A stretch of DNA of 51,379 nt from an uncultured Pelagibacteraceae bacterium (lineage in GTDB: Bacteria; Pseudomonadota; Alphaproteobacteria; Pelagibacterales; Pelagibacteraceae). How positions within the stretch are numbered: position 1 is the first letter of the stretch; the number at the start of each line of letters is the position of its first letter. The DNA lies in contig CACPKQ010000008.1 of NCBI GenBank assembly GCA_902634455.1, positions 1-51,379 on the forward strand, written 5' to 3'. Of the stretch, positions 25,469 to 34,590 are shown piece after piece. The notes under the pieces were generated by a model, which saw nothing but the letters and a program-made list of their open reading frames with translations, did no database searches and was not told where the DNA came from. The position numbers and the translations under genes are program-made.

Positions 25469-25563
25469 TACTAATATATATCAGATTCTTAATAAATTAC
25501 TTTATTTTTACTGTTGTTTATGCTTTAAAAAAACCAACATGTACTGTATTAGTATCCAATTAA

Positions 25564-25640
<77 letters not shown>

Positions 25641-25647
25641 TTGAGAT

Positions 25648-25929
25648 ATGAAAAAAGCAAAAATATATAAACCTGGAAAAACTGCTATGCAATCAGGTAC
25701 AAAAAAATATAACAAGTGGGTAATAGAGTTTATTACAAAAAAACCAGGTATTAACCCATTAATGGGATGGGAAAGCTCAACAGATACTTTTACTGAGGTT
25801 AAATTAGAATTTTCTACAAAGGACTCGGCTATACAATATGCAAAAAAAAATCAAATAGACTTTGAATTAATAGAATCAAAAAATAGAAAAATTGTAAAAA
25901 AGTCATATTCTGATAATTTTATAAAATAA
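25648..25929 (+). CDS. NDUFS4-like NADH dehydrogenase accessory subunit (ETC complex I)
   Basis: This 93-residue protein matches the NDUFS4/AQDQ accessory subunit of respiratory complex I (PF04800). Supporting segments are [16 protein letters not shown]-containing [20 protein letters not shown], and [17 protein letters not shown], all hallmarks of this family in alphaproteobacteria and mitochondria. It probably sits on the peripheral arm of complex I near the NADH module. It stands outside any nuo cluster here, as is usual for this gene. The SbmA-like gene starts five bases later. Confidence 0.9.
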
Positions 25930-28842: not shown

Positions 28843-30948
28843 ATGTTAAAAATTGCTACCATACTACCTTACAAGGAAAATTATACTTTCAGTAAAGCTG
28901 CTGCTGCATCTTTGTGGGTTTCAGATTTTTTTAAATATTCTAAATACAAAAAAAACAATTACATATATGGTAGCACCGATAGTAAAGACTATTTAACTAA
29001 AAATTATGTAAATATAGATTTAAAAAAAAAAAATAAACTATTTAGTACTACGGCTGTTTATTGCGATAGTTTAATTAAAAAAATTAATAACAAAAATTTC
29101 GATATTATTGAAATTCATAATAGACCTTTAGTATTTTTATATCTAAAAAAAAATTTAAAGTGTAAGTATATTATATACTTTCATAATGATCCTTTATCAA
29201 TGAAAGGGTCAAAAAAAATTAATGAAAGAATTCGTTTACTTAATGAAACTGATAAAATAGTTTTTGTAAGTAAATGGGTTCAAAAACGTTTTTTTATAGG
29301 TATTGATAAAAGGCTTATAAATAAAACTGAAGTAGTTTATCCAAGTATTAATATCGATAAAAAAAGAATTAAAAAAACAAAAAGAATTGTTTTTGTTGGT
29401 AAACTTAATCCTTCTAAAGGCTATGACATATACAGAGACGCAATAATTAAAATTTTAAATGAATTTAAAAACTGGAAAGCTTTTTCAATAGGTGATGAAA
29501 GTAGAAATAAACCAACAATTAATCATAAAAACCATTTTGAAATAGGTTATTTAAAACACAAAATTGTATTGAATTTTTTAAAAGGATCTCAGATAGCCGT
29601 TGTTCCTTCAAGATGGGAAGAGCCATTTGGTAGAACGGCACTAGAGGCATCTTCAAGAGGATGTGCAACAATTATATCGAATAGGGGGGGTCTGCTAGAA
29701 ACTACTGATCACTGTATAATATTAGAAAATATTAACAGTAATGAATTGTATAGTCAGATTAAAAAATTAATTGTTAATAAAAAATTAAGAAATAAATTAC
29801 AAAATGATGGATCAAAATATGTTAAGCATATAACTAAAGAAAATTCAGATCTTATAGATCAAATAAGAAGTGAGCTAATTGACATATTTAAAATTAATTT
29901 TAATAAAAATAATTTAAAAATTATGAATATTTATAATGTTGGTCAAAAACTTGACCATCGTCTTTATAATATTTCTATAGGAAAAAAATTCACTAATGGT
30001 TTTATAAGAAATGGCAATGATGTTATAGAAATTAGTGATAGAGATTTTGTTAAACAAAATAGAGGTTTTAATTTTGTTAATACAACTGAAAAATTTCAAA
30101 AATACTTAATATCTACTTTTAAAAATTATCATCCAAATTTAGTTTTTTTTGGACATACTAACAATATTTACTTAGATACCTTAGACCAGTTTAAAAATAT
30201 AAATAAAAATGTAGTAATTTCTCAGTGGAATGAAGATCCAATGATGGCAAGTCTTAAAGACTCAAAATCAAATATCGAAAAAATTACATATTATAACAAT
30301 TATGTTGATCATAATTTTATAACTACAGATCCATCTGTTTTAAAAAATCAGAAAAAAAAGTTAAAAAATACAAAATTTCTTTTTATACCTGTTGATAAAA
30401 ATATTGAAAGTTACAATGTTTATGATCTAAATCCACGAAAAGATCTATTTTATGCAATGAGTCATGGTGTAAATAGAGCAAAATTAAAATCAGGAAAAAG
30501 TGATAGCAGGATTTTTTTTCTTAATAGATTAATTGAAAGAATGAATAATATTAATTATGACTTTTATGGCTTTGAAAATAAAGAGCCAATTTGGGGAAAT
30601 GATTTTTATACAGCTTTAATTAACTCAAAAATGGGTTTAAATCTAAGTAGAGGAAATCCAACAAAATATTATTCTAGTAACAGAATAGCATCCTTAATGG
30701 GAAATGGTTTGCTTACATTTATCGATAAAAGAACTTCATTTGATGATATTTTTAATAAAGATGAAATAATATTTTATACAAGTATAAGAGAATTAGCAGA
30801 AAAAATATCATTTTATAAAGTTAATCATAAACAAAGGAGAAAAATTGCTAGGAAAGGTCAAATAAAATATTTTAAATTATTTAATGAAAAAAGAATTACT
30901 AAGTACATTATAGAAAATTCTTTCAATAAAAAAATTTCATTATTTTAA
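28843..30948 (+). CDS. Two-domain glycosyltransferase (GT4-like plus CgeB-like)
   Basis: The 701-residue protein appears to be a fusion of two transferases. Residues 1-350 form a GT-B enzyme of the GT4 type: FVGKLNPSKGYDIYRDAI starts the nucleotide-sugar domain, and WEEPFGRTALEASSRGCATI carries the EX7E motif. The second half starts near MNIYNVGQKLDHRLYN (residue 361, an internal ATG at 29923). It contains QWNEDPM, AMSHGVNRAKLK, NLSRGNPTKYYSSNRIASLM and GNGLLTFIDK, resembling CgeB/GT1-like domains. It probably assembles surface polysaccharide or LPS. Sugar donors are unknown. It is the first gene of the surface-sugar block. Confidence 0.8.
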   Translation: MLKIATILPYKENYTFSKAAAASLWVSDFFKYSKYKKNNYIYGSTDSKDYLTKNYVNIDLKKKNKLFSTTAVYCDSLIKKINNKNFDIIEIHNRPLVFLYLKKNLKCKYIIYFHNDPLSMKGSKKINERIRLLNETDKIVFVSKWVQKRFFIGIDKRLINKTEVVYPSINIDKKRIKKTKRIVFVGKLNPSKGYDIYRDAIIKILNEFKNWKAFSIGDESRNKPTINHKNHFEIGYLKHKIVLNFLKGSQIAVVPSRWEEPFGRTALEASSRGCATIISNRGGLLETTDHCIILENINSNELYSQIKKLIVNKKLRNKLQNDGSKYVKHITKENSDLIDQIRSELIDIFKINFNKNNLKIMNIYNVGQKLDHRLYNISIGKKFTNGFIRNGNDVIEISDRDFVKQNRGFNFVNTTEKFQKYLISTFKNYHPNLVFFGHTNNIYLDTLDQFKNINKNVVISQWNEDPMMASLKDSKSNIEKITYYNNYVDHNFITTDPSVLKNQKKKLKNTKFLFIPVDKNIESYNVYDLNPRKDLFYAMSHGVNRAKLKSGKSDSRIFFLNRLIERMNNINYDFYGFENKEPIWGNDFYTALINSKMGLNLSRGNPTKYYSSNRIASLMGNGLLTFIDKRTSFDDIFNKDEIIFYTSIRELAEKISFYKVNHKQRRKIARKGQIKYFKLFNEKRITKYIIENSFNKKISLF

Positions 30949-30974
30949 ACAGAAAATAATTAATTGCTTAAAAT

Positions 30975-32009
30975 ATGAAAAGTAATAAAAGTCATATAGT
31001 AATATTAAAAAATGATGCTGTGGGAGATTTGGTTCATAGCTTGCCTGCAATTTACAGCATAGTCAACAATGATAAAGTTACAAAGATAACCTTATTTTTA
31101 TCTAAACAAAGCAAAGGATTTAATTTTTTTTTCGACAATAAAAAAATAAATATTAAAATAATTAACAATAATTTAACTATTTTAGAAAAAGTTAAATTAT
31201 TCATTTTTTTTATTCTTAACCAAATAGATAAAGTTTTTATTTTAGCTCCAAAAGAATATTTCTTTTATTTACCGTTCTTCTTTAGAAAAATTAAATTTTT
31301 TGCAATATGTATAAATAATATTAATAACTACAAAAGACCGAAAGAATTTTTAAGAAATTATCTTTTTAAATACAAAATCAACCATAGAGATGCTGTCTTT
31401 AAAAGACTACCATCGGCAGATCTGCAATTTTCACTATGCAATGAAAAAAATCTAGAAAAGAAAAATTTTAATTTCTCACCCCATATATCTACTAAATTAA
31501 AAGAAAAATTACCTTCAAATTATATTTATTTTCATGTTAAAAAAAAAATTACTGATGAATTAGGATGGGGTATAAATGAGTTAAAAAATCTATTCAATAA
31601 ATTTACTGATTTTTATCCAAAAGTTATATTAACAAAAGATAATGAGATTGATGAAAATAATTTAATCTTTAAACAAAATTTCAATTTCTTTGATTTAAAA
31701 ACATATGAATTTATTAATAATAAAAGCAAAGTCCTTTTTATAAACAATATTGAAGGAAAGGATCTTTATAATGTTATTAAGTTTTCAAAAAAGGTAGTTG
31801 CTTTCCACGGAATGATGACAAATCTTGGAAGTTTAGAATATAAACCAGTTATCGATTTGTTTTATTGTAAAATTAGTTCATGGAATGATTATCGAAACTA
31901 TAGAAACTCATTTTACGAATTTAAGCCTAAATATAAAGGTTATAATTTTATAATACCTAGTAAAGATATAAATAGAACTTTAAAAAAAATAACCTTTTTA
32001 CTTAAATGA
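30975..32009 (+). CDS. Glycosyltransferase family 9-like (heptosyltransferase-type)
   Basis: The 344-residue protein begins VILKNDAVGDLVHSLPAIYSI, the nucleotide-sugar/acceptor loop typical of GT9 ADP-heptose:LPS heptosyltransferases. Near the C-terminus VVAFHGMMTNLGSLEYKPVIDLF corresponds to the family's GPxSGxxHLA region but is quite altered, with FHG in place of GPD. LPS core or another surface glycan is therefore likely; heptose itself is not certain. It overlaps the next gene by four bases (ATGA). Confidence 0.72.
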   Translation: MKSNKSHIVILKNDAVGDLVHSLPAIYSIVNNDKVTKITLFLSKQSKGFNFFFDNKKINIKIINNNLTILEKVKLFIFFILNQIDKVFILAPKEYFFYLPFFFRKIKFFAICINNINNYKRPKEFLRNYLFKYKINHRDAVFKRLPSADLQFSLCNEKNLEKKNFNFSPHISTKLKEKLPSNYIYFHVKKKITDELGWGINELKNLFNKFTDFYPKVILTKDNEIDENNLIFKQNFNFFDLKTYEFINNKSKVLFINNIEGKDLYNVIKFSKKVVAFHGMMTNLGSLEYKPVIDLFYCKISSWNDYRNYRNSFYEFKPKYKGYNFIIPSKDINRTLKKITFLLK

Positions 32010-32902
32010 ATAAAAAAATAATTGTTAGAATTGCGGAAGGTATTGGAAATCAATTATTTATATATGCACATGCATATGCTTTATCTAGAAATCTTGGTTG
32101 TGATTTATTTGTAGATGATACATCTGGCTATCTTAAAAAAACTAATCAACTAAGATCATATCAACTAGATAAATTTAATATTGATATTTTATTATCTGAG
32201 CAAAAATATCGGTTTGACACTTTTGCTTCCAATTTAAAAAGAAATTTTTTAAAAAAAATTGATTTTTTTAAAAAAAATAAACTTTTTTTACTTGAAGCAA
32301 CAGATAAAAATAAACATACTCAATATAATAACACCAGTGCGATAAATTTTTCTGATTTATTATATGTTGAAGGTTATTTTGAGACTGAAAAATACTTTAA
32401 AAAATTTCAAAATAATTTAAAATCTATGTTTATTGTTAAAGACGAATATATTGATACTAATAATAAATTTTTTCACCTCCTAAATAATTCTAACTCAGTT
32501 TCTATTGCTATTAGGCAAAATCGATACTCTGAAAGAGGAGCAATTAATAATGAAAAATCACTAGAATTCACTAAAAATACCATAGATTATATTAATAAGG
32601 GTGTATCTTTTTTTAAAAAAAAAATTTCTAATCCAAAGTTTTTTATTTGGTCTAATGACTTTAAAAACCTAAATCAATATTTTAATGAAAGTGAATTTAC
32701 ATTTATTGAGAATCAAAATAATAAATCCTTAAATGATTTTAATCTTTTTAAATATTCAAAACATTTTATAGTAGGTCCAACTTCTTTTCATTGGTGGGGT
32801 GCATGGTTAAATGAAAATCCTTATAAAATTTGTTTAAGACCGTCTAACATAAATCCTTCAAATAATAAGGATTTTTGGCCAGATAGTTGGATTAAAATTT
32901 AG
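32006..32902 (+). CDS. Glycosyltransferase family 11-like (alpha-1,2-fucosyltransferase-type)
   Basis: The 298 residues match the GT11 layout: VRIAEGIGNQLFIYAHAYALS at the N-terminus, VEGYFETEKYF in the middle, and VGPTSFHWWGAWLNE near the C-terminus, the last being the clearest GT11 signature. The usual HxRRxD donor motif is replaced by AIRQNRY, keeping one Arg but losing the His and Asp, so the fucose specificity is doubtful. It likely adds a deoxyhexose or related sugar to a surface glycan. The stop overlaps the convergent integrase gene by four bases. Confidence 0.75.
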   Translation: MNKKIIVRIAEGIGNQLFIYAHAYALSRNLGCDLFVDDTSGYLKKTNQLRSYQLDKFNIDILLSEQKYRFDTFASNLKRNFLKKIDFFKKNKLFLLEATDKNKHTQYNNTSAINFSDLLYVEGYFETEKYFKKFQNNLKSMFIVKDEYIDTNNKFFHLLNNSNSVSIAIRQNRYSERGAINNEKSLEFTKNTIDYINKGVSFFKKKISNPKFFIWSNDFKNLNQYFNESEFTFIENQNNKSLNDFNLFKYSKHFIVGPTSFHWWGAWLNENPYKICLRPSNINPSNNKDFWPDSWIKI

Positions 32903-33852
32903 ATTTTAATTTTATTTAAAGCATTATTTTTAAATATATTTGCTTCTCTTATATATCTTCTAACCATTTGTGTTGTTTTGTGACCTGTCATTGCCATAAT
33001 ACTTCTTTCATCAGCTCCTGATTCAGCGGCAACTGTTGCAAAACCTGATCTTAAACTATGTCCTGAGTAATTCTTATTTTCTATACCCGCTAGATTCAAA
33101 TAATCTTTAATTATTAAAACTACTGACTGATCTGTTAATCTATTGTTTGTTAATACGGATCCTTTTGCAAATCGTCTAAAAATTGGACCAGATTTTATAT
33201 TTGATAACTCTATCCATCTTTTTAGGTTAATTACTGGACAGTATTTTTCATTTGTGAAGTAGGGTAGACCTTTTATCATTCCTTCGCCAAATTGATCTGT
33301 TTTTGACCTTTTGATAGTTATTTTAACACCCTCTGGAACGAATTCTAAGTCCTCATGATCAATTGATATTAATTCGGTTCTTCTAAATCCGCCTCCAAAA
33401 CCAACTAACAAAATTGTTTTGTCTCTAATTTTTTTTATTTCTTCTGCTTCTTGATCATCAATAACATTAATAATTGATTTTAAATGATTGATTAATATGG
33501 GTTTTTTTCCTTTTTGGATGCTTCCTTTAACCCTTCTAATACCCATTAAATTTTCTATAATTATAGGATGTTTGGTATCTAGATAATGCCCTTTAAGCCT
33601 ATGAATCATGCTTATTGATACTAATCTTCTTCGTAAAGTACTGATTTTTGAGCTTTTTGATAGATGGGTTAGGTAAAGAGATATTATTTTAGGTTCAGTT
33701 GGAAGGGAATCAAAGCCATGCTTTACACAAAAAGCCCCAAAATCTCTAAAATCTGACTTGTAAGCTCTTAAAGTGTTATTAGACTTAGAGCTTTTGAGGT
33801 TATTTAATGTTTCCTCATGAAGTGATTTTATGTCTGTAACAAGTTCATTCAT
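32899..33852 (-). CDS. Tyrosine recombinase / phage-type integrase
   Basis: This is a full-length 317-residue tyrosine recombinase. Residues 5-105 form the N-terminal SAM-like core-binding domain. The catalytic set is complete: Arg157 in GGFRRTELISID, Lys184 in the KRSKTDQ turn, His265 and Arg268 in SGHSLRSGF, His291 in MTGHKTTQ, and Tyr300 in RRYIREAN. It could be XerC/D-like or belong to a mobile island. No other phage genes are seen nearby. A near-perfect 14-base inverted repeat with a 7-base centre sits four bases before its start codon. Confidence 0.92.
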   Translation of the reverse strand: MNELVTDIKSLHEETLNNLKSSKSNNTLRAYKSDFRDFGAFCVKHGFDSLPTEPKIISLYLTHLSKSSKISTLRRRLVSISMIHRLKGHYLDTKHPIIIENLMGIRRVKGSIQKGKKPILINHLKSIINVIDDQEAEEIKKIRDKTILLVGFGGGFRRTELISIDHEDLEFVPEGVKITIKRSKTDQFGEGMIKGLPYFTNEKYCPVINLKRWIELSNIKSGPIFRRFAKGSVLTNNRLTDQSVVLIIKDYLNLAGIENKNYSGHSLRSGFATVAAESGADERSIMAMTGHKTTQMVRRYIREANIFKNNALNKIKI

Positions 33853-33855
33853 ATA

Positions 33856-33890
33856 ATTACTATTGATAACAATTAATTATCGATAGTAAT
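33856..33890. repeat. 14-7-14 inverted repeat before the integrase gene; possible recombination core site or operator
   Basis: ATTACTATTGATAA (33856-33869) and TTATCGATAGTAAT (33877-33890) are inverted copies with 13 of 14 positions matching, the odd pair being G-T in RNA. They flank a 7-base centre, CAATTAA. Two inverted 11-14 base arms around a 6-8 base spacer is the usual design of tyrosine recombinase core sites such as loxP, FRT and lambda core. An operator for autoregulation is the alternative. The repeat is seen directly; its role is inference. Confidence 0.6.
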
Positions 33891-34301: not shown

Positions 34302-34307
34302 TTTAAG

Positions 34308-34316
34308 TTATCCACA
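34308..34316 (+). promoter_or_regulatory. Single perfect DnaA-box-like 9-mer
   Basis: TTATCCACA matches the E. coli high-affinity DnaA box. It lies in the long gap before the structured RNA. No second box was seen nearby, and one 9-mer may be chance. Confidence 0.25.
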
Positions 34317-34394
34317 CTATTCTACCCTGTTAAAAACTTAATAAATTCAACAAAAAAGTGATACATACAACCTTTTTACTCTGATAATGTTGAA

Positions 34395-34581
34395 AATGAA
34401 TTAAGGGGCAACCCTTAACTGGCCGATTGGGGAAAAACCGAGAGGTTCAAGCCCAGGGGGCAGAAAGCTCTACAAAGCAGCGCTAAACATGTAGAGCGGA
34501 AGGCATGGCGGTAGCGCATACAACGACGTGCCAAAACTACTGTTCTTTGCACCGTTAAAAGTGCAAGGAAACAGTGTTTTT
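34395..34581 (+). ncRNA. Unidentified G+C-rich structured RNA
   Basis: About half of the bases from 34401 to 34532 are G or C, in a gap of otherwise very AT-rich DNA. Helices seen: TTAAGGG-GCAA-CCCTTAA (34401-34418, GNRA loop); AACC-GAGA-GGTT (34436-34447, GNRA loop) inside TGGG/CCCA (34428-34431/34452-34455); GCTCTACA/TGTAGAGC (34467-34474/34490-34497); and GGCAT/GTGCC (34502-34506/34528-34532). Loop bases GCGCTA (34480-34485) can pair with TAGCGC (34512-34517) as a kissing or pseudoknot contact. A strong terminator closes it. The 5' end is a guess based on GATAAT at 34383-34388. No motif of tmRNA, RNase P or SRP RNA is present. Confidence 0.7.
34539..34581 (+). terminator. Intrinsic terminator of the structured RNA
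   Basis: ACTGTTCTTTGCAC (34539-34552) pairs with GTGCAAGGAAACAGT (34561-34575), with one bulged A and one G-U, around an 8-base loop. It is followed directly by GTTTTT. The stem has 14 base pairs. It ends nine bases before the next gene's ATG, so it could end a small RNA or act as an attenuator for that gene. Confidence 0.85.
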
Positions 34582-34590
34582 ATCAGTTTA

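Follow-up and report, generated by a model that had tools for sequence, protein, structure and literature searches.

A G+C-rich block in a SAR11 contig is a copy of the IMES-2 noncoding RNA gene with a covarying kissing loop and a conserved promoter-like element

Results

A full-length IMES-2 RNA in the window

The G+C-rich block at positions 34394–34534 (+ strand) of the window, the whole stretch of 51,379 nucleotides that was analysed, is an IMES-2 noncoding RNA gene (RF02035) of a SAR11 bacterium. IMES-2 is the sole non-tRNA Rfam match in the window, scoring 162.3 bits against a cut-off of 54.7 (E 7e-43) and covering model positions 1–141 of 141. The original prediction had placed an unassigned structured RNA at 34395–34581, which locates the block almost exactly; the Rfam search that it proposed, with a hit to a known family as the outcome that would count against novelty, returned such a hit, and IMES-2 is therefore an already catalogued family and not a new RNA class. 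The prediction was right that the block is none of tmRNA, RNase P or SRP RNA: the Rfam scan gave no match to tmRNA or SRP RNA, and a permissive scan restricted to the block (E up to 5) found no family besides IMES-2, and in particular no 6S RNA (RF00013). Elsewhere in the same genome (Pelagibacteraceae, 1.09 Mb, 81% complete, one IMES-2 copy) we found an alpha_tmRNA (C7, 228.8 bits) and an SRP-like RNA just below the cut-off of 40 (C32, 39.3 bits).

The 141-nt RNA is 52% G+C within a window of 27% G+C, and lies, as had been noted, in a gap of about 289 nt between genes (34302–34590). Elsewhere in the window a G+C content of 48% over 141 nt is reached in just one region, which lies over a tRNA (25510–25705). 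The + strand of 34395–34581 folds at −71 kcal/mol, compared with −48.2 ± 3.7 for dinucleotide shuffles (z −6.2; none of 200 as good), and the − strand folds less well (z −4.7).

Five covarying helices and a kissing loop

All helices lie on the + strand. P1 (34401–34418) is a 7-bp hairpin capped by a GCAA tetraloop (34408–34411) that is identical in 30/30 aligned copies. It is followed at 34419–34463 by P2, an internal loop and P3 with a GAGA tetraloop (34440–34443), where 6 of 11 and 3 of 4 pairs, respectively, show changes on both sides. P4 (34467–34497) is an 8-bp stem, GCTCTACA/TGTAGAGC, in which all eight pairs covary, and its loop carries the strand GCGCTA (34480–34485). P5 (34502–34532) is a covarying stem of nine positions, one of them a mismatch kept in 30/30 copies, with the complementary strand TAGCGC in its loop (34512–34517). 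Both tetraloops, the perfect 8-bp stem and the complementarity of the two loops had been read correctly from the letters of the window.

Covariation across 28 copies maintains the consensus secondary structure of IMES-2 and is strong in all five helices. Standard pairs fill 94.5% of cells, 25 of the 45 pairs show changes on both sides, none of 500 shuffles matches the observed covariation, and sliding the partners against each other lowers pairing to 31–41%. The signal persists when a distant genus is added (30 copies), in an alignment that is fitted to the model and thus biased towards it. This covariation, together with conservation of the sequence, upholds the expectation of a functional, multi-helix noncoding RNA. 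Thirty-nine bases are invariant, and about half of these are unpaired in the nested fold, where they sit in the GCAA loop, an AAA linker and the kissing loops.

The kissing helix has separate support from covariation: 96% of cells are paired, compared with at most 56% when the strands are slid. The two strands change in step in three lineages, so that GCGCTA/TAGCGC of the window becomes GCACTA/TAGTGC in one (L038), GTACTA/TAGTAC in another (L036) and AGCACT/AGTGCT, offset by one pair, in a third (L031 and L032). One subgroup (L040, L043, L047 and L048) has lost the outer G-C pair. Such pairing of the P4 loop with the P5 loop would lock the 3′ half of the molecule.

A promoter-like element and a terminator frame the RNA

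Upstream of the RNA lies a promoter-like element, CAAC-N6-GTGATAC (34348–34364, + strand), which may be a −35 region or an activator site and has the general form CAAC-N5/6-AGTGATAC. With G[TC]GAT picked by eye as the anchor, this motif stands 33–36 nt upstream of the RNA in 50/50 copies, across three unrelated gene contexts. A C ten bases upstream of it is present in 50/50 copies, independently of the choice of anchor, and the adjacent upstream A in 48/50. The element gave about 65 loose matches in roughly 0.9 Mb of scanned SAR11 sequence against 57 in shuffles; with matches so near the shuffle level, there is no sign of broader use in SAR11. Sequence and spacing mark GATAAT (34383–34388, + strand) as a candidate −10 box, TGATAAT-like in many copies, the spacing of the −10-like box not being constant in a simple automatic scan. 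From these elements we infer that the RNA is transcribed from its own promoter, with a start at about 34394–34396.

At the 3′ end, a hairpin (34540–34574) followed by a T run (34577–34581) forms an intrinsic terminator (34540–34581, + strand). A 14-bp terminator had been predicted; the hairpin and T run are present, whereas the consensus stem has 13 bp and the minimum-energy fold is longer. In an alignment of 21 copies, 4 of the 13 consensus pairs show changes on both sides. Hairpin and T run follow the RNA in genus g2 as well as in the genus of the window, and the copies of genera g5 and g6 are followed by a long hairpin with a weaker T run. Transcription from such a promoter to the terminator would yield a free-standing transcript about 185 nt long.

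Three gene contexts

The neighbours of IMES-2 differ between genera. In the genus of the window, the RNA lies between a recombinase and an alkyltransferase-like (ATL) gene; in g5 and g6, between mnmA (named by eye from its sequence) and a membrane protein that matches nothing in Pfam; and in g2, between a nuclease and an SRAP-domain gene. A riboswitch or leader would be expected to lie consistently in front of genes of a single family, and we observed three different contexts. The recombinase–alkyltransferase pair also occurs without IMES-2, and IMES-2 without the pair; these neighbours, once considered suggestive, are uninformative and their proximity is incidental. Because the promoter-like element is kept while the gene neighbours change between genera, we have strong grounds to regard IMES-2 as a free-standing RNA gene that probably acts in trans.

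Patchy distribution within SAR11

SAR11 bacteria are the commonest in the ocean, and many of them carry IMES-2: of the 197 Pelagibacterales genomes sampled, 81 have it, always as a single copy, and these belong to four of the ten genera. Among 385 genomes sampled from the class just three matched, all of them SAR11, and no IMES-2 was found outside Pelagibacterales; the named genomes among the matches listed in a pattern scan were likewise all Pelagibacteraceae or Pelagibacterales. A complete genome of 1,308,759 bases (G011) gave no detectable copy, and a list of sRNA candidates for Ca. P. ubique HTCC1062 does not include IMES-2 (PMC2704228). Our own covariance model (R1), run on 20 genomes, missed known distant copies and was too lossy, so the calls of absence rest on the Rfam model and are still approximate. 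Since many SAR11 genomes carry no copy, IMES-2 is not a universal housekeeping RNA, and some SAR11 lineages can do without it. Mapped on a tree of the recombinase, its presence and absence require about 12 changes, a patchiness that is only suggestive, since most branches lack good support and recombination at the locus is possible.

The most distant form comes from another genus (L031 and L032), scoring 62–69 bits with about 52% identity to the window copy. We consider these sequences true homologues because they share the upstream element with the other copies. They lie in another gene context (L031, 4960–5101; L032, 5036–5177), and have an 8-bp P1, a P3 without the GAGA hairpin loop and a shifted kissing helix.

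We also asked whether SAR11_0636 or IMES-1 replaces IMES-2 in genomes that lack it, and rejected both. IMES-1 (RF02034) had no match over the cut-off in the 197 Pelagibacterales. SAR11_0636 is not an alternative since the two RNAs are found in the same genomes. In several genomes of g5, IMES-2 lies about 3–5 kb from a weak SAR11_0636-like RNA (for example G094, C1, 59304–62850).

A resident recombinase with a dif-like palindrome

The neighbouring ‘integrase’ (32899–33852) is a resident tyrosine recombinase of SAR11 and the sole tyrosine recombinase match in most of the 15 SAR11 genomes that we searched. Directly adjoining it is a 35-bp palindrome, ATTACTATTGATAACAATTAATTATCGATAGTAAT (33856–33890), the only such site in its genome. 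The same palindrome adjoins the recombinase both in genomes that carry IMES-2 and in others that lack it, G011 included, and was not found near the recombinase in G001, G009 and G164 when up to 9 mismatches were allowed. Sampled GC skew changes sign at the recombinase and palindrome in two of three complete genomes (G011 and G003); in the third (G015) the switch lies about 130–200 kb away. Pelagibacter ubique has been said to have no dif/Xer system (PMC2731167). This juxtaposition of recombinase and palindrome is reminiscent of the single-recombinase XerS/difSL and XerH/difH systems, and by this analogy looks like a putative single-recombinase Xer/dif system. On the other side of the recombinase are glycosyltransferase-type genes (28843–32902), one matching Glyco_transf_11, and the neighbours on this side differ between genomes.

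Discussion

Taken as a whole, our reading is that this IMES-2 gene would be transcribed from its own promoter into an RNA of five helices that is locked by a kissing contact and acts in trans as a scaffold for protein; we assign it a probability of about 0.5. The unit would serve as a rigid scaffold for one or a few bound proteins. This step is drawn solely from the pattern of invariant bases: the unpaired ones, in the tetraloop of P1, the AAA linker and both kissing loops, lie where contacts with protein or tertiary contacts would be expected, and long unpaired stretches that could pair with mRNA are few. A rigid protein-binding scaffold is our first-ranked account of function, favoured over each competitor yet held at slightly less than even odds.

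Ranked second, and appreciably less probable, is an antisense role in trans, in which IMES-2 as an sRNA would pair with mRNAs by way of its unpaired segments: the 5′ tail, the P2/P4 linker and the internal loop. A free-standing gene, an intrinsic terminator and patchy presence among relatives are typical of regulatory sRNAs, and the AGAAAG linker is almost invariant. The unpaired stretches are short, however, the larger loops are taken up by the kissing contact, and covariation maintains all five helices and not one seed region. We rate the remaining readings low. A cis-acting leader or attenuator of the alkyltransferase-like gene would explain why, in the genus of the window, that gene begins a short way past the terminator in almost every copy examined; it is nonetheless unlikely, as three other genera place the RNA elsewhere with the next gene on the opposite strand, and many genomes have the alkyltransferase gene without IMES-2.

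That IMES-2 might functionally replace 6S RNA, the regulator of RNA polymerase, is a little less likely still. The Rfam 6S model, under strict filters, matched none of the 197 Pelagibacterales and yet detected the RNA in Caulobacter and E. coli, an absence that is compatible with a 6S-like role without lending it direct support. Against such a role, a long stem interrupted by a central bubble is missing from the fold, IMES-2 itself is also absent from over half of the genomes sampled in the order, and the permissive scan of the block turned up nothing 6S-like. The least credible reading makes IMES-2 an attachment site or passenger of the adjacent recombinase or of a phage. A tyrosine recombinase does adjoin it in the genus of the window, but as a resident gene with a palindrome of its own that also occurs without IMES-2, and searches for IMES-2 in viral contigs by pattern and in phage records by BLAST gave no match.

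These results turn a catalogued motif into a defined gene with testable ends, fold and hosts, on the basis of the covarying kissing loop, the promoter-like element, the terminator, the three contexts, a map of presence and absence across SAR11 and a form of about 52% identity. Complete genomes with and without IMES-2 provide natural comparisons. We regard it as a long shot that IMES-2 forms the core of an RNA–protein particle acting as a global regulator in SAR11 genomes in which the Rfam 6S model finds nothing; the kissing-loop lock, the promoter-like element and the distant form would then be the first mechanistic handles on that particle.

IMES-2 reportedly is an abundant transcript in seawater, and is said to come from the same discovery study as IMES-1, a different family despite the similar name. 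SAR11_0636 (RF01827), also a noncoding RNA of SAR11 and presumed to be free-standing (PMC2704228), likewise belongs to a different Rfam family. 6S RNA (RF00013) is of roughly similar size and also free-standing, but differs from IMES-2 in architecture. Relative to RF02035 as catalogued, the terminator of the window copy lies outside the model and the kissing helix is absent from the nested structure as printed by cmscan. In its full-length match, all of its helices, family-level sequence conservation and marine SAR11 host, the block otherwise shows essentially no difference from IMES-2.
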